DNA from: Candidatus Fermentibacterales bacterium
Lineage (GTDB): Bacteria; Fermentibacterota; Fermentibacteria; Fermentibacterales; JAFGKQ01
DNA length: 7,482 nt
Direction: 5' to 3'
NCBI GenBank assembly: GCA_016928495.1
Contig: JAFGKQ010000120.1
Span: 1-7,482, forward strand
Every line of letters starts with the position of its first letter. Position 1 is the stretch's first letter. Both the position numbers and the translations under genes were made by a program. Below the pieces are notes generated by a model. The model did not search any database, was not told where the DNA came from, and saw only the letters and a program-made list of their open reading frames with translations. Of the stretch, positions 1 to 6,545 are shown one piece after another.

Positions 1-828
1 GGAGGCCCCGCTTGCCTGCATCGCCAGGCAGGCCAGCTTCCCGGGAAGCTGGGATAGCGGGGCTACGTACCCATAGCCTCCCAGGCCGTCGAAGACCTCG
101 AGCCTGATAGCGGAGTAGATGGCAAGGGCTGCAAGGATCGAGGCGCCGAGAGCGATCCCCGGGACCCTGCGCCGCGAGACGCATGGGAGCAGGATCCAGG
201 CGGCCGGAACGGCCGCCGCCGCCGCCAGGCCCAGCTCCTTGGCCCACATGGCCAGCAGGACCAGGAGGCCGACCAGAATCGCGGGGCCGATCCGGCGGGT
301 CTCCCCGCCCCCTGAGCAGGGCCGCAGCAGAACGAGCAGCGCAGCCAGGGAGAGCAGGGTTGCCAGGATGTCGCCCCTGTTCGATACGATGCCCCATGCC
401 TCGACCGTCGCGGGGTGCGCGGCGAAGAGCAGGCTCGAAGCGAGCCCCGCCCTTCGGGAGTGTGTCAGCCGGACCACCATCAGGCCCGCCAGGGTGGCGC
501 AGGCGGCGTGGAGCAGGAGATTCACCAGCGCGTAACCGGGGAACCAGCCATTCCAGGCGGCATGCTCCGCCAGCACGACCAGGCTGGTCACCGGCCTGAA
601 GAACCCGGTCCTGGAGCCATCCTCCAGCGTGTCGCTCCAGCTGTCGAGGAGGTAGTCGTCTATCTCCTGCCCGTGCCGGAGGGGGATGAGGAAGCTCATG
701 AACTCCTGCCCGGCGGGGAATGCCCGGACGGCGGGATGACCCACGGCGAGAGTCATCAGGAGGGCGCAGACGGCAATGCCGGCAAGAGAGAGGCGTCGCT
801 GACTCGGCTGCATCTCCGACCAGGGCAT
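1..828 (-). CDS. GT-C superfamily membrane glycosyltransferase (TMTC/PMT-like), 3' end outside window
   Basis: The N-terminal 276 residues of a polytopic membrane protein lie here; the C-terminus is beyond base 1. Visible in the sequence: a first hydrophobic segment at about residues 14-35, an Asp pair in the following extracytoplasmic loop (D57-D58, 'IDDYLLD'), FFRPV at 76-80, the segment 'LVNLLLHAA' at 101-109, 'LLFAAHPATVEAW' at 133-145, 'SNRGD' at 149-153, and 'AKELGL' at 196-201. This order (loop acidic residues, F/Y-R-P, N-LLH, HP-x-x-E-W, R-x-D, K-E) is typical of GT-C enzymes of the TMTC and dolichyl-phosphate-mannose-dependent mannosyltransferase type. These use a polyprenyl-phosphate sugar and transfer it on the outer face of the membrane to protein or glycan. 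Several further hydrophobic segments follow (about 109-120, 154-168, 182-195, 200-215, 223-240). TMTC-type proteins often carry TPR repeats C-terminally, which would lie outside the window. ATG 828 is the chosen start. An in-frame ATG at 948 sits inside the candidate -10 box, and another in-frame ATG exists at 813. No ideal ribosome-binding site is seen. The gene is divergent from the GT2 at 1081. Donor and acceptor are unknown. Confidence 0.75.
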   Translation of the reverse strand, partial: MPWSEMQPSQRRLSLAGIAVCALLMTLAVGHPAVRAFPAGQEFMSFLIPLRHGQEIDDYLLDSWSDTLEDGSRTGFFRPVTSLVVLAEHAAWNGWFPGYALVNLLLHAACATLAGLMVVRLTHSRRAGLASSLLFAAHPATVEAWGIVSNRGDILATLLSLAALLVLLRPCSGGGETRRIGPAILVGLLVLLAMWAKELGLAAAAAVPAAWILLPCVSRRRVPGIALGASILAALAIYSAIRLEVFDGLGGYGYVAPLSQLPGKLACLAMQASGAS

Positions 829-946
829 CGCTGCTCGCACCGCCTTCCGCTCGAGATCCGGCTGTCCGGGCCAGGCGCAGGCGCCGGGAGCGGCGGCTGT
901 CACGCCGCCAGTGGGTCTGGCCGGCACCACGACCCGCGCGGTCGCC

Positions 947-976
947 ATTATACGAGCGGGCGCTCAGGGCCAGCAA
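947..976 (-). promoter_or_regulatory. Candidate sigma70-type promoter for the leftward GT-C gene
   Basis: On the minus strand a perfect TATAAT (947-952) is preceded, after an 18-nt spacer, by TTGCTG (971-976), which matches three of six positions of the -35 consensus. A start site about 7 nt downstream would fall near 940. That leaves a leader of roughly 110 nt before ATG 828 and would exclude the in-frame ATG at 948, which is formed by the -10 hexamer itself. Sigma-factor preferences of this organism are unknown, so the assignment rests on the hexamers and position only. Confidence 0.4.
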
Positions 977-1080: not shown

Positions 1081-1824
1081 GTGGAGCCGAAGAGCATCTC
1101 AGTCGTCGTTCCCGTCTATAACGAGGAGCAGAACGCAGCGGCCGCCGTGAGGTCCCTCGACGCGGTTCTGTCACGCGGCTTCAAGGATTTCGAGATAGTG
1201 ATCGTGGAGAGCGGCAGCACCGATGGAACGGCAGCGATAGCCGATGAGCTGGCCCGCTCCAACGAGAGGATCAGGGTGCTCCACCAGAACCGCAGAGAGG
1301 GCCTGGGAAGCGCCATAAGGCTCGGCTTCGCCTCTGCCCTGAAGGACTACGTCCTCTACGTGGATGGCGACGAGCCCTTCGACGTGGCGGACATAGCCAC
1401 CAGGGTCCTTCCGCTCCTGGGCGATTTCCGCGCGGTGATAGGCTACAGGATCGGCAAGAGGGAGAGCTTCAGGAGGAAGCTCTACTCCTGGACCTACAAC
1501 AGGCTGGTCCAGCTCCTCTTCCGGCTGGACGTGAGGGACGTCAACTTCTCCATGAAGGTCATCGAGAGGAAGTTGCTGCAGTCGCTCGAGCTTACCTCCA
1601 ACGGCTGTTTCTACGACGCGGAGCTGATCGCGGAGCTCCGGAGGCGAGGAATCGAGATAAAGCAGATCGGCTTCGAGTACGTTCCCAGGGGCCGCGGCAG
1701 GTCTTCGCTCGATCGCCCCTCCGTGATCCTGGGCATACTGCGGGAGATGCTCTCCTACCTCCTCAGAAGGGGAAGCGGCAGCAGACGCATCGATGCAGTC
1801 CCGCCCGGCCCTTCGGCGAGTTGA
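1081..1824 (+). CDS. Family 2 glycosyltransferase, polyprenyl-phosphate-mannose-synthase-like
   Basis: The predicted protein is 247 residues, a single GT-A fold domain. Visible motifs: the Rossmann-like opening 'SVVVPVYNEEQN' (7-18), 'IVESGSTDGT' (41-50) where most GT2 enzymes have D-D/D-G at the nucleotide site, 'GLGSAIRLGF' (74-83), the metal-binding 'DGDEPFD' (95-101) in place of the usual DADxQ/S, 'GYRIGKR' (121-127), 'YNRLVQLLFRLDVRDVNFSMKVI' in two parts at 139-161, and a basic R-G-R-S-S-L (204-210 region). The layout from GLG through the late R-x-S motif matches DPM1/Ppm1-type synthases, which transfer a sugar from an NDP-sugar to polyprenyl phosphate at the cytoplasmic membrane face. 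No C-terminal membrane helices are seen, unlike GtrB-type enzymes, so it is probably peripheral. The start is GTG with GGGAG at 1065-1069, 11 nt upstream; the fold begins at residue 6, so little N-terminal extension is possible. It precedes the nucleotide-sugar genes by 60 nt and is divergent from a GT-C that could use its product. Donor sugar is unknown. Confidence 0.8.
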   Translation: MEPKSISVVVPVYNEEQNAAAAVRSLDAVLSRGFKDFEIVIVESGSTDGTAAIADELARSNERIRVLHQNRREGLGSAIRLGFASALKDYVLYVDGDEPFDVADIATRVLPLLGDFRAVIGYRIGKRESFRRKLYSWTYNRLVQLLFRLDVRDVNFSMKVIERKLLQSLELTSNGCFYDAELIAELRRRGIEIKQIGFEYVPRGRGRSSLDRPSVILGILREMLSYLLRRGSGSRRIDAVPPGPSAS

Positions 1825-1849
1825 CACCCGATTCACCCCGGAGTACCGT
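1821..1849 (+). promoter_or_regulatory. Candidate internal promoter ahead of the nucleotide-sugar genes
   Basis: A perfect TTGACA (1821-1826) overlaps the GT2 stop codon and is followed, with an optimal 17-nt spacer, by TACCGT (1844-1849), which keeps the first two and last bases of the -10 consensus. Transcription would begin near 1856, upstream of the strong AGGAGG at 1874-1879 of the next gene. The -10 match is weak, so the three SDR/nucleotidyltransferase genes may simply be co-transcribed with the GT2. Confidence 0.25.
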
Positions 1850-1884
1850 TCTGTCTGATCCCTCGAAGCGGCCAGGAGGTCTCG

Positions 1885-2886
1885 ATGTCTGATCCTGCGG
1901 GGCGCAGGGTGCTGGTCACTGGTGCCGGCGGCTTCATCGGCCATCATCTGGTCGCCTCTCTGCTCGACGAAGGTTACGAGGTGGTCGCCTTCCTGCGCTA
2001 CACGTCGGGCGGCGGCCACGGGCTTCTCTCCCTGCTTCCTCCGCGCCTGGCGGGCCGCTACGAGGCCGTTCTGGGCGATCTGAGGGACTTCGAGTCGGTT
2101 CGAAGAGCGATGAGAGGCTGCTCCGCGGTTCTCCACCTGGGCGCTCTGATAGGGATTCCCTACTCCTACGACAGCCCTTCGGACGTGTTCGGCGTGAACG
2201 CCATGGGAACGCTCAACGTCCTTCAGGCCGCCAGGGACACCGACAGCATAGAGAGGATCGTGATCACCTCCACGAGCGAGGTCTACGGAACGGTCGGTGA
2301 GGGGCTGATCACCGAGGAGCACCCTCTGCGGGCCCAGTCTCCCTACGCCGCCAGCAAGATAGCAGCCGACCAGCTCGCTCTCAGCTTCCACAGGAGCTTT
2401 GGCCTCCCGGTCGCGATCTGCCGCCCGTTCAACACCTTCGGCCCCGGCCAGTCGGCCAGGGCCGTGGTGCCAACGATCGTCTCGCAGGCGCTCTGGGAAG
2501 ACAGGATAGCGCTGGGCTCCCTGCACCCGGTCAGGGATCTCAGCTACGTCACGGACATAGCGGGCGCCTTCCTGTGCATGCTCCGCGCGGACGGCATCGA
2601 AGGCAGGACCATCCAGTTCGGGTCGGGGGAGGGAGTCTCGGTGGGCGACCTCGCCGGCATGATCATCGAGATCGCAGGGCGTGCGGGGCTGCCCGTAGTG
2701 GAGGACGAGAGCAGGATCAGGCCCGGCGCCAGCGAGGTCGGAAGGCTGGTCGCCTCCACCGCCCTGGCGGAGAGCCTCACTGGCTGGGGGCCCTCGATCG
2801 GCCTCAGGCAAGGCCTGGAGCTCACCGTGGACTGGGTTTCGGGGCACCCCGGCCTCTACCCCTCGCCGGGGCTCTACAGGACATGA
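1885..2886 (+). CDS. LegB/ArnA-like extended SDR, probable NDP-hexose(amine) 4,6-dehydratase
   Basis: The 333-residue protein has the length and order of an NAD-dependent extended short-chain dehydrogenase/reductase. NAD site: 'TGAGGFIG' (12-19). Acidic site: 'GDLRD' (64-68). Active site: 'TSTSEVYG' (128-135) with Glu132 retained, as in 4,6-dehydratases and ArnA/UXS decarboxylases, and Y154-x-x-x-K158 ('SPYAASK'). Substrate-side motifs: 'ALIGIPYSY' (87-95), 'RPFNTFGPGQSARAVVPTI' (180-198), 'LGSLHPVRDLSYV' (210-222), 'RPGASEV' (279-285). The GIPYSY, FNTxGPxQSARAVxPTI and GSLxPxRD strings are characteristic of LegB, which makes an NDP-4-keto-6-deoxy-HexNAc in legionaminic acid synthesis. The start is fixed by AGGAGG at 1874-1879, 5 nt before ATG. 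The stop overlaps the next ATG (ATGA). The LegC aminotransferase usually found with LegB is absent; the next genes are a nucleotidyltransferase and a reductase-like SDR, so the end product is probably not legionaminic acid. A decarboxylase role is the main alternative. Confidence 0.78.
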   Translation: MSDPAGRRVLVTGAGGFIGHHLVASLLDEGYEVVAFLRYTSGGGHGLLSLLPPRLAGRYEAVLGDLRDFESVRRAMRGCSAVLHLGALIGIPYSYDSPSDVFGVNAMGTLNVLQAARDTDSIERIVITSTSEVYGTVGEGLITEEHPLRAQSPYAASKIAADQLALSFHRSFGLPVAICRPFNTFGPGQSARAVVPTIVSQALWEDRIALGSLHPVRDLSYVTDIAGAFLCMLRADGIEGRTIQFGSGEGVSVGDLAGMIIEIAGRAGLPVVEDESRIRPGASEVGRLVASTALAESLTGWGPSIGLRQGLELTVDWVSGHPGLYPSPGLYRT

Positions 2887-3632
2887 CCGCTCAGGGGGCC
2901 CCTCGCACAGCCGTCATCCTCGCCGGGGGCCTGGGCACCCGCCTGGCGCCCTACACGGCGGTCTTCCCGAAACCGCTGGTGCCAATAGGGCAGTACCCCG
3001 TGATGGACATCCTGGTCAGGCAGCTCGCCGCCGCTGGATTCTCCCGGCTGTGGTTCTCCGTGGGCCATCTGGCCGAGCTCGTGGAGGCCTACTTTCTCAA
3101 TCACCCCCTGAGAGCCGCCTCCGACCTGGAGATAGACTACATCAGGGAGCACGAGCCGCTCGGCACTGCCGGGTCCCTGCGGCTGGCAGGAGACCGCCTT
3201 CCGGAGGCATTCCTCGTTCTCAACGGGGACATACTGACGGACGTCGACTTCGCGGCGATGCTCGAGCGTCACGTGAGCAGCGGGGCAGCGCTCACGATCG
3301 CTTCCCACGGGAAGCACCTCACGTTGCCGCTGGGAGTGATCGAGCAGGCCTCCGGAAGGGTCACCGGGTACGTCGAGAAGCCCTCGCTCGAGTACGAGGT
3401 CAGCATGGGCATCTACGCCTACTCGAGAAGGGCCCTCGAGTACATCCCGGAGTCGGGCCCGTTCGACCTTCCCGAGCTGGTCCACCGGCTGCTCGAGGCC
3501 GGCGAGACCGTTCTGCGTGACCTTGCCGACGAGAGCTGCTCCTGGCACGACATAGGCAACCCCGACGACTACGCCGCCGCACAGCAGTCCTTTCGGGACG
3601 CGCCCTCGAGATACCTTCCGGACCTCCCTTGA
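2883..3632 (+). CDS. Sugar-1-phosphate nucleotidyltransferase (NDP-sugar pyrophosphorylase)
   Basis: The chosen ATG gives 249 residues, a complete single-domain NTP_transferase. Its start overlaps the stop of the preceding SDR (ATGA); the longer open frame to 2574 only reads through that gene out of frame. Motifs: 'LAGGLGTRL' (13-21), which binds the nucleotide triphosphate, 'FPKPLVPIG' (28-36) with its catalytic lysine, 'EPLGTAGSL' (91-99), 'LNGDIL' (113-118) with the metal-binding Asp, 'GYVEKP' (162-167), 'SMGIYAYSRRAL' (174-185) and 'WHDIGNPDDY' (221-230). The family forms NDP-sugar and pyrophosphate from NTP and sugar-1-phosphate in the cytoplasm. The overall pattern is closest to mannose-1-phosphate guanylyltransferase-like and PtmE-like enzymes, but there is no N-terminal CBS pair as in PtmE and no C-terminal left-handed beta-helix as in GlmU/GMPP. 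It would supply the nucleotide sugar consumed by the flanking SDRs. Nucleotide and sugar specificity cannot be read from the sequence. Confidence 0.85.
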   Translation: MTAQGAPRTAVILAGGLGTRLAPYTAVFPKPLVPIGQYPVMDILVRQLAAAGFSRLWFSVGHLAELVEAYFLNHPLRAASDLEIDYIREHEPLGTAGSLRLAGDRLPEAFLVLNGDILTDVDFAAMLERHVSSGAALTIASHGKHLTLPLGVIEQASGRVTGYVEKPSLEYEVSMGIYAYSRRALEYIPESGPFDLPELVHRLLEAGETVLRDLADESCSWHDIGNPDDYAAAQQSFRDAPSRYLPDLP

Positions 3633-4579
3633 GAGTAGCGATATCCGGGGCTTCAGGCTTCCTCGGGCGACACCTGACGGATGCCCTGCTCTCGGCCCGC
3701 ACGGATGGGGCCCCGATGGAGCTGCTCCTGATGGACGCCCGGCCTCCGGAGCCGCCCGGGGCGGAGATCGCTTGTGGGTCAGTCGAGCTGGTCCGCTGCG
3801 ACCTGCTGCGGCCGGCCGGGGAGGTCGTGAGACAGCTCCGTGGACGCAGGGTGGACGTGCTGATACACCTCGCGGGACTGACCAGGCACGCGGACGAGTC
3901 CTTCCTGGTGGAAGCCAACATGCGCATGACCGGCACCCTGCTCGACGCGATCGATGCGGAGCGGACGATCGTCACGAGCTCGTCGGCGGTCTACGGCCAG
4001 CCCGCCGAGCCGGAGCGGACGATCGGAGAGCAGTATCCCGTCTCCCCGGTAACGGCCTACGGCAGGAGCTGCGCGGCCAGGGAGCGGGCGGCCGTCGAGG
4101 CCCTCCCTGCTTCCCGTCTTTTCGTTCTGCGGCTGTTCAACCTGGCGGGCCCGGGACAGCAGCCCGTGATGCTGATCCCTACCGTGGCCTCGAAGCTGGC
4201 GAGGATGGAGGCCGGGCTGGAGCCCCGGCTTCTCCGGCTGGGCCAGCTCGACAACGTAAGGGACTACGTGGACGTGAGGGACGCGGCGCGTGCGATCTCC
4301 CTGCTCTCGACGACACCCGGGGGGGCCAGGATCCCTCCCGTGATGAACGTGTGCTCCGGCAAAGGGGTCTCCGGGCATGACGTGGTCGGAAGGCTCATCG
4401 GGATGTCGGAGGTCACACCGGAGATAAGGGCCTCGGGAGCCTATCCCGGTTCCTCTCCGGTCAGCCGCATCGTGGGAGACGGAAGGCTCATCGGGAGGGT
4501 GATCGGATGGAGGCCTGCGGTCGCTCTGGAGCGGACCCTGACGGATGTGCTGGACTACTTCAGGGCGCACAGCGCATGA
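3629..4579 (+). CDS. RMD-like extended SDR (probable NDP-4-keto-6-deoxyhexose reductase) lacking the catalytic lysine
   Basis: The 316-residue protein starts with TTG in a TTGA overlap with the preceding stop. The start is fixed because the NAD(P) motif 'GASGFLG' is at 7-13 and no ATG or GTG lies nearby in frame. Further motifs: 'VDVLIHLAG' (75-83), 'TSSSAVYG' (116-123) with Ala120 where dehydratases keep Glu, 'LRLFNLAGPGQQ' (167-178), 'LGQLDNVRDYVDVRDAARA' (204-222), 'NVCSGKGVS' (240-248) and 'IGWRP' (292-296). The FNxxGPGQ, GxLDxxRDxxDVRDxxRA and NVCSGxGVS strings are those of GDP-6-deoxy-D-mannose reductases (RMD), which reduce the 4-keto group to give GDP-D-rhamnose. The notable departure is Tyr144-Gly-Arg-Ser-Cys148 (codon TGC at 4070-4072): the lysine of YxxxK is missing although the surrounding alignment is intact. 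It may be inactive, use another residue, or act as an epimerase or binding partner. It is last in the cassette. The closest alternative call is a generic GalE-like epimerase. Confidence 0.75.
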   Translation: MRVAISGASGFLGRHLTDALLSARTDGAPMELLLMDARPPEPPGAEIACGSVELVRCDLLRPAGEVVRQLRGRRVDVLIHLAGLTRHADESFLVEANMRMTGTLLDAIDAERTIVTSSSAVYGQPAEPERTIGEQYPVSPVTAYGRSCAARERAAVEALPASRLFVLRLFNLAGPGQQPVMLIPTVASKLARMEAGLEPRLLRLGQLDNVRDYVDVRDAARAISLLSTTPGGARIPPVMNVCSGKGVSGHDVVGRLIGMSEVTPEIRASGAYPGSSPVSRIVGDGRLIGRVIGWRPAVALERTLTDVLDYFRAHSA

Positions 4580-4710: not shown

Positions 4711-5448
4711 TCAAGCGACCTCTTCCCCGGCAGCGCCGGTCCTCTTCCCCAGTCCCGTCACCCTCGCCGCCAGCACGCTCAGCTCGAACAGCAGGTAGAG
4801 CGGCGCCGCCAGCATGACCTGGGTCAGCGGGTCCGGAGGGGTCAGGATCGCAGCCGCAACCAGCAGGGCGACTATCACGTGTCTTCTGTAGCGGGCCAGC
4901 GTTGATGGCCTGAGCACGCCAAGGCCCACCAGCAGCAGCACCAGCACGGGCAGCTCGAAGGCCACGCCGAAGACCAGCACCATCCGACCGACGAACCCGA
5001 TGTAGCTAGAGACGCTCCAGCCTCCCCTTATGGTCCCGCCCTCGAAGCTCTGCAGCACCCCGGTGACCGGCTCGAGCATCAGGAACCAGGCGAAGAGGGC
5101 TCCCCCGGCGAAGAGAAGGAAGCACGAGGCCGCCGCCGCGGCGGACACCTTTCTTTCCCTGTCCAGAAGCCCGGGGGAGATGAAGCGCCACAGGTGGTAG
5201 AAGCCGACAGGAGAGCTGAGGATGATGCCTGCCACCAGCGAGACCTTCAGGTGCGCGACCAGGGCCTCGGAGGGGGAAAGGGCGAGAAGCTCGGAGGGGC
5301 CCCTGGAGATGACGAATCCGGTCAGGGTCCTTCCGAAGGCGATCAAGGCGGTCAGGGTCGAGACCGTCAGGACGCCGAGCACCACGAGGATGCGCTGCCT
5401 GAGCTCCTCCAGGTGATCCCAGAAGCTGCCTTCAGGAGATGCCCTCAC
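4711..5448 (-). CDS. tatC: Sec-independent (twin-arginine) protein translocase subunit TatC
   Basis: The chosen GTG at 5448 gives 245 residues, the normal TatC length; a longer open frame to 5550 only reads through aroB. TatC is the six-helix inner-membrane receptor that binds twin-arginine signal peptides and, with TatA, moves folded proteins across the cytoplasmic membrane. Signatures: the N-terminal 'FWDHLEELRQR' (9-19), first helix about 20-38, periplasmic loop, helix 2 about 64-82, 'PVGFYHLWRFISPGL' (80-94) followed by Glu98 of 'DRERK', helix 3 about 103-124, 'AFELPVL' (163-169) with the conserved Glu165, 'YRRH' (187-190), 'ILTPPDPLTQ' (201-210) with Asp206, and the last helix about 211-228. 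These correspond to the signal-peptide-binding Glu and other conserved polar positions of E. coli TatC. GTG overlaps the aroB stop as GTGA, indicating translational coupling. No tatA or tatB is adjacent; these must be elsewhere in the genome. Confidence 0.95.
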   Translation of the reverse strand: MRASPEGSFWDHLEELRQRILVVLGVLTVSTLTALIAFGRTLTGFVISRGPSELLALSPSEALVAHLKVSLVAGIILSSPVGFYHLWRFISPGLLDRERKVSAAAAASCFLLFAGGALFAWFLMLEPVTGVLQSFEGGTIRGGWSVSSYIGFVGRMVLVFGVAFELPVLVLLLVGLGVLRPSTLARYRRHVIVALLVAAAILTPPDPLTQVMLAAPLYLLFELSVLAARVTGLGKRTGAAGEEVA

Positions 5449-6545
5449 CAAGCCGCGTCTTCCTCGAGAAGAGAGCCTAGCAGCCGCGACTCCTCCGAAG
5501 GGCTCAGAAGAGTGGGCCTGCAGTCCTCCCAGCCGAACGGCAGGACCCATGTCCTCTGGCCCCCGCGGCCCGTTTTCTTGTCGCGCTCCAGGAAGTCCGC
5601 CAACGCGCCCGGGCTCCGCGAGAGGCCCGCGAACCCGATGCCAAGGCCCGGGAGCATTCCGGCAAGCTCCAGGGAGAGACCCGGTGCGGAGCCCTCGAGC
5701 AGCTCGGCCATCCGGGCCTCGAGGACCAGGCCGGCTGCCACGGCCTCTCCGTGTGTCAGACCGAACCCGCTAGCGCTCTCGAGGGCGTGACCCAGAGTGT
5801 GCCCGGCGTTGAGCAGGACCCTCCTGCCCGTCTCCAGCAGGTCCTCCGTGACTATGGCCCCCTTGACCCTCAGACACCGCTCGACGAGGGAGGACGCCCA
5901 GTCCTCGAAGCCCGGCTCCCCGGCTCCGGGTACGCGAGCCAGGAGCCCGGCCGCGATGGACGCATCCCCGACCAGAGAGGTCTTGAGGGCCTCGCCAAGG
6001 CCGCCCCTGAAGTGCCCCGGCTCCAGCGTGGCCAGCAGCCGCGTAGCGATCCAGACGCTCTCTGCCGGGTAGAAGGTCCCGAGCTGGTTCTTGGCATCAC
6101 CCAGGTTGACGGCAGTCTTGCCGCCCAGGCAGGCATCCACCTGGCAGAGCAGTGTGGAGGGCACCAGGATCAGCGGAAGGCCTCTCAGGTAGGTCGAGGC
6201 GGCCAGCGCCCCGACATCGCAGACGAGGCCTCCGCCGAAGCAGACGACGGCGTCTGCGCTGCGGCGCAGCCCCGCTTGCCGCATCGCCATCCATGCCGAT
6301 TCCAGGGTCCGGACCGTCTTCGCGGCCTCTTCCGCGCGGATCAGCAGCCGTCCCGCCTGCTCGAGGCCCGACAGCTCGAGATCCAGCTCGTCCCCCCAGA
6401 AGGACAGGGCCCTCTCGTCGGCGACGAGGAACACCCTGCTGCGGCCTGAGCTCGAGACGAGAGCGCCCAGGCCCTCCAGGCCTGCGTCGAGCACGAGGCC
6501 CGTGACCCGGTCGGCGCTCATCGGGAAGCAGAGCTCCCTCCTCAT
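5445..6545 (-). CDS. aroB: 3-dehydroquinate synthase
   Basis: The 366-residue protein has the usual length for AroB, which converts DAHP to 3-dehydroquinate in the second shikimate-pathway step using NAD and a divalent metal in the cytoplasm. Motifs: 'EEAAKT' (72-77, the GExxK nucleotide motif), 'FGGGLVCDVGALAAS' (103-117), 'LRGLPLILVPSTLL' (120-133), 'DACLGGKTAVN' (137-147), 'AKNQLGTFYP' (151-160), 'GLGEALK' (182-188), 'LNAGHTLGHALE' (245-256), 'LTHGEAVA' (263-270) and 'RDKKTGRGGQRTWVLP' (321-336). Glu185, His249 and His265 fit the metal ligands, and Lys143, Lys152 and Lys324-region residues fit phosphate/carboxylate contacts. Some positions drift from the norm: the FYQP loop is one residue shorter and the usual D-T/L-D after it reads A-T-R. 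A related sugar-phosphate cyclase is possible but less likely. GGAGG at 6551-6555, 5 nt upstream, fixes ATG 6545. It lies 28 nt after the transporter and overlaps tatC. Confidence 0.93.
   Translation of the reverse strand: MRRELCFPMSADRVTGLVLDAGLEGLGALVSSSGRSRVFLVADERALSFWGDELDLELSGLEQAGRLLIRAEEAAKTVRTLESAWMAMRQAGLRRSADAVVCFGGGLVCDVGALAASTYLRGLPLILVPSTLLCQVDACLGGKTAVNLGDAKNQLGTFYPAESVWIATRLLATLEPGHFRGGLGEALKTSLVGDASIAAGLLARVPGAGEPGFEDWASSLVERCLRVKGAIVTEDLLETGRRVLLNAGHTLGHALESASGFGLTHGEAVAAGLVLEARMAELLEGSAPGLSLELAGMLPGLGIGFAGLSRSPGALADFLERDKKTGRGGQRTWVLPFGWEDCRPTLLSPSEESRLLGSLLEEDAAW

Follow-up and report, generated by a model that had tools for sequence, protein, structure and literature searches.

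A Fermentibacterota gene cassette combining a LegB-like dehydratase, a nucleotidyltransferase and a lysine-less SDR with a predicted polyprenyl-phosphate glycosyltransferase

The 7,482 bp of DNA analyzed here (the window) make up an entire contig of a Fermentibacterota metagenome-assembled genome (MAG) that is 80.9% complete, and carry a compact cassette of four genes encoding a glycosyltransferase (GT2), a first short-chain dehydrogenase/reductase (SDR1), a sugar-1-phosphate nucleotidyltransferase (NTP), and a second SDR (SDR2). With a probability of roughly 0.55, we interpret this cassette as a small operon that makes one unusual nucleoside diphosphate (NDP)-sugar and loads it onto a polyprenyl-phosphate carrier. 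In the proposed pathway, NTP would activate a sugar-1-phosphate, SDR1 would use bound NAD to convert the NDP-hexose (or NDP-hexosamine) to its 4-keto-6-deoxy form, and the C4 ketone so formed would be the target of SDR2, in the most probable case a reductase or isomerase relying on Tyr144 and bound NAD(H) without the usual lysine. GT2 would transfer the sugar to polyprenyl phosphate at the cytoplasmic face for a membrane glycosyltransferase acting outside, and in sister species the SDR1 step would be replaced by a nucleotide-sugar dehydrogenase and a different SDR. Gene order, families, motifs, recurrence, exchange and loss of the lysine were read from the sequence, and from these we infer every chemical step, the order of the reactions and the acceptor. 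A sequence-only reading of this stretch had proposed a self-contained route from sugar-1-phosphate to a lipid-loaded 6-deoxysugar, an interpretation that the present analysis supports in part.

SDR1 (1885..2886, + strand, 333 aa; Pfam GDP_Man_Dehyd, 1.3e-58) is predicted to be a LegB-like NDP-sugar 4,6-dehydratase. Its top NCBIfam match is TIGR04180, LegB, at 354.5 bits (next TIGR01181, 144), which falls short of the TIGR04180 cut-off of 475, although C. jejuni LegB itself scores only 464.8. The protein contains the motifs GAGGFIG, S-T-S-E132-V-Y-G and Y154-AAS-K158, such that the dehydratase Glu, the Tyr, the Lys and GxxGxxG are all present, and is ~42-53% identical to plasmid-borne LegB-type copies. 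By its sequence SDR1 is a subfamily relative of LegB, and this family membership together with E132, Y154 and K158 supports the 4,6-dehydratase role assigned to it previously. NTP (2883..3632, + strand, 249 aa; Pfam NTP_transferase, 3.5e-35) has an intact GGLGTRL...PKP signature and no acyltransferase domain; its top NCBIfam match, man1P_GTase_Rv at 127.8 bits, lies far under the cut-off, and no NCBIfam equivalog cut-off is reached. The SDR1 stop and NTP start share an ATGA overlap (2883..2886, + strand) and the NTP stop and SDR2 start a TTGA overlap (3629..3632, + strand), joining the three genes by 4-nt overlaps, and 60 nt lie between GT2 and SDR1. Coordinates, Pfam and NCBIfam agree with the four open reading frames (ORFs), families and overlaps described in the earlier reading, whose numbering of Glu132 in SDR1 and Ala120 in SDR2 is also correct.

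The LegB-like character of SDR1 could instead mean that the cassette is part of a GDP- or UDP-linked legionaminic acid pathway, as a nucleotidyltransferase also occurs in true LegB loci. Among plasmid records, however, the gene order in most LegB loci proper is LegB-LegC-NeuC-NeuB, and neither the window nor the neighbourhood of the L009 copy (G and L numbers are our labels for genomes and loci) encodes a LegC aminotransferase, NeuC hydrolase/2-epimerase, NeuB synthase or CMP-sugar synthetase. As these later genes are absent, we rejected identification of the cassette as a legionaminic acid locus and consider a role in that pathway highly improbable.

Close homologues of NTP were found in 5 of the 395 genomes sampled from the phylum of the Melioribacteraceae locus. 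In three of these (L103, L104, L105) SDR1, NTP and an SDR follow one another in the order of the window, overlapping or a short distance apart; L106 has an aminotransferase in third place, and L102 is cut upstream of NTP. The trio with a third SDR was also found in plasmid records of Deinococcus sp. QL22, D. aquaticus, D. ficus and Streptomyces californicus, each time adjoining pelF and mostly with endo-alpha-1,4-polygalactosaminidase genes, while a DegT aminotransferase gene and then a methyltransferase gene follow SDR1-NTP on a plasmid of Staphylococcus aureus. NDP-6-deoxysugars with a C4 ketone undergo either reduction by an SDR (Rmd, RmlD, Fcd) or transamination by a DegT-type enzyme (WecE, PglE, LegC) at that position. 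As a reductase-type SDR or a DegT enzyme directly follows SDR1-NTP in unrelated phyla, SDR1 probably makes a 4-keto-6-deoxysugar from the NTP product, in keeping with the 4-keto intermediate first suggested for this cassette. SDR1 and NTP together look like a module that makes an NDP-4-keto-6-deoxysugar and hands it to a C4 enzyme that can be exchanged. Defined by comparison, this recurrent and apparently unnamed module of a LegB-like dehydratase, a nucleotidyltransferase and an exchangeable C4 enzyme spans distant phyla and also occurs in Pel-like exopolysaccharide loci.

The surroundings of the module differ between these loci. At L103:1337-7896 the trio adjoins NeuB-, cytidylyltransferase- and PseG-like genes, and its sugar may join a nonulosonate-containing glycan. 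The Deinococcus and Streptomyces pelF loci (L109, 4-12 kb; L111, 2.9-10.1 kb; L114; L121) appear to be Pel-like exopolysaccharide loci with a probable extra supply of sugar nucleotide. On the staphylococcal plasmid (L119:3998-7425), the LegB-like dehydratase, which has a shortened start, the nucleotidyltransferase, the DegT enzyme and the methyltransferase lie directly before mupA, a mupirocin-resistance gene.

Within Fermentibacterota, close homologues of SDR1, NTP and SDR2 were found in 6, 11 and 11, respectively, of 42 genomes, the window's own counted. The whole neighbourhood recurs in other members of the phylum at 53-59% SDR1 identity, and the nearest named relative, a Candidatus Fermentibacteria MAG, has the same gene neighbourhood as the window. 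The order GT2-SDR1-NTP-SDR2 is found in G000, G040, G037 and G004 (in the last beside TatC and AroB in another arrangement), and GT2-SDR1-NTP runs up to a contig end in G034. The G026 cassette (L051:5731-8895) has frameshifts in SDR1 and NTP, and also in TatC and the membrane gene, which may be assembly errors. Given the recurrence of the neighbourhood in Fermentibacterota and of SDR1-NTP with a third gene in other phyla, the linkage is not due to chance, and the check on conserved linkage and order that had been proposed for the cassette comes out in its favour.

GT2 (1081..1824, + strand, 247 aa, GTG start; Pfam Glycos_transf_2, 2.6e-26) resembles dolichyl-phosphate mannose synthase (DPMS), and the alignment with the P. 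furiosus enzyme (PfDPMS, 5mlz) spans residues 5-224. The DxD motif of GT2 is D95-G-D97, with DGD or DAD in 12/12 homologues. In PfDPMS the phosphate of dolichyl phosphate is held by Arg117, Arg131 and Ser135 (PMC5526996), and the equivalent residues of GT2, R123, R132 and S136, are likewise kept in 12/12 homologues. Retention of these phosphate-site residues upholds the polyprenyl-phosphate transferase role proposed earlier, and the prediction that GT2 is a polyprenyl-phosphate-sugar synthase is well supported by sequence. As Gln93, His94 and Lys178 of PfDPMS, which contact the metal, sugar or phosphoester, are not retained, the donor of GT2 is probably not GDP-mannose. No obvious transmembrane segment was seen in GT2, and its linkage to the cassette is specific to Fermentibacterota among the sampled genomes. 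Divergent from the cassette, a polytopic membrane protein (948..1, - strand; an ORF with no Pfam match, cut by the contig end) is a possible candidate for a GT-C user of the lipid-linked sugar; a relative adjoins the cassette in G040, G001 and G035 and is in pieces in G026, and Pfam PMT matched one relative only at E 3.5. Our literature searches found nothing on Fermentibacteria glycosyltransferases. The cassette offers an initial look at how Fermentibacterota may supply lipid-linked sugars.

Several observations weigh against interpretation of the cassette as an operon for one lipid-loaded NDP-sugar. The GT-C identity of the membrane neighbour is unsupported by Pfam, by a PDB profile search, which returned nothing, and by an AlphaFold model that is unusable at a predicted local distance difference test (pLDDT) score of 37, and the Pfam matches in the window include no recognisable flippase. 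The D. grandis locus has SDR1-NTP without a third SDR. Five loci have NTP and SDR2 but no SDR1, and in G001, G029, G032 and G038 GT2 and NTP are adjacent without SDR1 and are then followed by SDR2. Lastly, all 12 SDR2 copies lack the catalytic lysine and have five different residues in its place, and a Lys-to-Ala substitution in SpsM, an extended SDR dehydratase, abolishes product in vivo (PMC7439481).

SDR2 (3629..4579, + strand, 316 aa, TTG start; Pfam Epimerase, 7.9e-32) is an extended SDR resembling GDP-6-deoxy-D-mannose reductase (RMD). Its motifs are GASGFLG, SSSA120VYG and Y144-GRS-C148, with Cys148 where the Lys of YxxxK is expected, a point that the sequence-only reading missed. Alignment revealed C, M, V, H or F, and never K, at this position in the 12 Fermentibacterota SDR2 proteins, which all keep the Tyr, while Lys is present in the RMD structures 2pk3 and 6x3b and in all six aligned third-gene SDRs from outside the phylum; the conserved flanking residues leave no room for an alignment shift as the cause. 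The simple reductase role proposed for SDR2 is therefore not supported as first worded. The SS[SC]AVYG strand and the Gly-rich NAD, RxFN and RD motifs are largely retained, and the best matches among solved structures are the RMD enzymes 6x3b (3.1e-24) and 2pk3 (3.5e-23). In the tree, the Fermentibacterota SDR2 proteins group with the Deinococcus and Streptomyces third SDRs (97/96) and with RMD (99/93), although the deep placement is less certain because of long branches (window SDR2, RMD, RmlB). A separate branch near SDR1 holds the third SDRs of L103-L105, which implies at least two recruitments of the third gene. The AlphaFold model of SDR2 has a pLDDT of 60, with low values near residues 119-136 and 171-214, and a Foldseek search with it returned extended SDRs (WbmG, RMD, UDP-GlcA 4-epimerase), a likeness at fold level only.

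By a strict motif test SDR2 is not a standard RMD but may still work like one, and its sequence leaves two options, an SDR of altered mechanism and a pseudo-enzyme. As a pseudo-enzyme, SDR2 would bind NAD and/or NDP-sugar and serve NTP or GT2 as partner or scaffold, with no redox activity; the cassette would then load either the 4-keto-6-deoxysugar itself or a sugar completed by an enzyme whose gene lies in another place. This is possible, though in our view rather unlikely: the replacement of Lys by five residues in 12/12 proteins with none fixed, the null outcome in SpsM, and the persistence of NTP and SDR2 together when SDR1 is swapped all fit such a role, whereas the invariant Tyr144 and the largely kept motifs exceed the needs of a scaffold, and transfer of free 4-ketosugars is generally rare. 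MAT2B was ruled out as a precedent for a Lys-less SDR since it has the Lys, and literature searches found no YxxxM sugar SDR. The series of Lys-less, Tyr-keeping proteins constitutes a natural direct test of how far the lysine is needed.

Loci without SDR1 extend beyond the four genomes listed above, as G035 (gap of N) and G024 (contig end) also look like GT2-NTP-SDR2 within the limits of their assembly, and in G005 SDR2 stands alone at the same genomic place. An apparent NTP-SDR2 fusion in G035 was rejected, since a stretch of N (X in translation) spans the join in the single 471-aa ORF. As GT2-NTP-SDR2 occurs without SDR1 in five species, NTP and SDR2 are independent of SDR1, and a self-contained pathway is not supported as first worded. 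RmlB, Gmd and decarboxylase-type dehydratases encoded elsewhere in the SDR1-less genomes are at most 37% identical to SDR1. A different SDR (altSDR), which has the motif STSE[VI]Y and the Tyr and Lys, was found (E 1e-60) in G001, G029, G032, G035 and G038 and is absent from G000, G004, G026, G034, G037 and G040, making it the exact complement of SDR1; G024 and G005 have neither. A nucleotide-sugar dehydrogenase and altSDR lie beside the cassette in G001 and G029; G032 and G035 have them as a pair within ~10 kb, and in G038 they are on a different contig. The pair loci (L056:2935-5338; L052:3733-6067; L088, L089, L090) occur only in SDR1-less Fermentibacterota. By counting only, with kinship ignored, the chance that sets of 6 and 5 drawn from 13 genomes share no member is ~0.016, and the exclusion rests on MAGs that are 68-95% complete. 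Genus g7 and family f2 each contain both states, which requires a minimum of two switches.

Read most simply, these loci share a constant frame of GT2, NTP and SDR2, in which the slot for sugar tailoring is exchangeable. Speculatively, if altSDR were an ArnA/UXS-like decarboxylase, a C4 ketone would reach SDR2 in both versions. Alternatively, NTP, SDR2 and GT2 could be the real pathway, in which SDR2, perhaps a 4-epimerase, would take the NTP product as its substrate while SDR1 or the dehydrogenase with altSDR served a parallel branch. We consider this unlikely, as SDR1, where present, is an internal gene of the operon and has overlaps, SDR1 and the alternative pair are mutually exclusive as though they met one requirement, SDR1-NTP in other phyla leads into a reductase-type SDR or aminotransferase, and epimerases also use the Lys; the adjacency of the trio without SDR1, complete in four genomes and interrupted by a gap or contig end in two, and the lone SDR2 of G005 speak for it. 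A bolder and, in our view, rather unlikely reading is that SDR2 belongs to a family of nucleotide-sugar SDRs that are catalytically active without the lysine, in a modular sugar-carrier cassette whose upstream enzymes (a LegB-type dehydratase, or a nucleotide-sugar dehydrogenase and another SDR) would be swapped between species. A single GT2/SDR2 frame would then load one lipid carrier with differing deoxy or pentose-type sugars.

The other - strand genes of the window encode TatC, AroB and a CitMHS-type permease. The longest ORFs of the TatC/AroB region (4711-6545, - strand) share an overlap of 106 nt, and homologues point to a later start of TatC, close to the SPEGSFWDHLEEL stretch. The TIGR01357 score of AroB is 226.9, under the cut-off of 305.

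Among known systems, the cassette follows the same logic of nucleotidyltransferase, 4,6-dehydratase and C4 reductase as ManC-Gmd-Rmd (GDP-D-rhamnose) and RmlA-RmlB with a 4-ketoreductase (dTDP-D-fucose type), and RMD from these NDP-6-deoxyhexose pathways is nearest to SDR2 by sequence and tree. It differs in having a dehydratase of LegB type in place of Gmd or RmlB, an SDR2 without the catalytic Lys, and a DPMS-like GT2 within the operon. LegB-LegC-NeuC-NeuB loci share a homologous 4,6-dehydratase and often a nucleotidyltransferase, whereas here the later Leg genes are missing and the third gene is an SDR. The unnamed Deinococcus and Streptomyces pelF/polygalactosaminidase loci have the same three families in the same order with a third SDR from the same RMD-like clade, but that SDR has YxxxK, GT2 is absent, and the setting is that of a Pel-like exopolysaccharide. 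GT2 shares with dolichyl-phosphate-mannose synthase and GtrB-type enzymes the GT-A fold family GT2, the DxD motif and the lipid-phosphate Arg/Arg/Ser, but has no obvious transmembrane domain, and the donor-site residues of PfDPMS are not kept, pointing to a probably different sugar. Compared with three-component extracytoplasmic glycosylation (GT2, flippase, GT-C), the window holds GT2 and a polytopic neighbour at 1-948 without a domain match. Most likely, the cassette supplies an NDP-6-deoxysugar to a lipid carrier and is new as a variant, with its LegB-type dehydratase, Lys-less RMD-like SDR2 and embedded GT2, rather than as a new kind of system.

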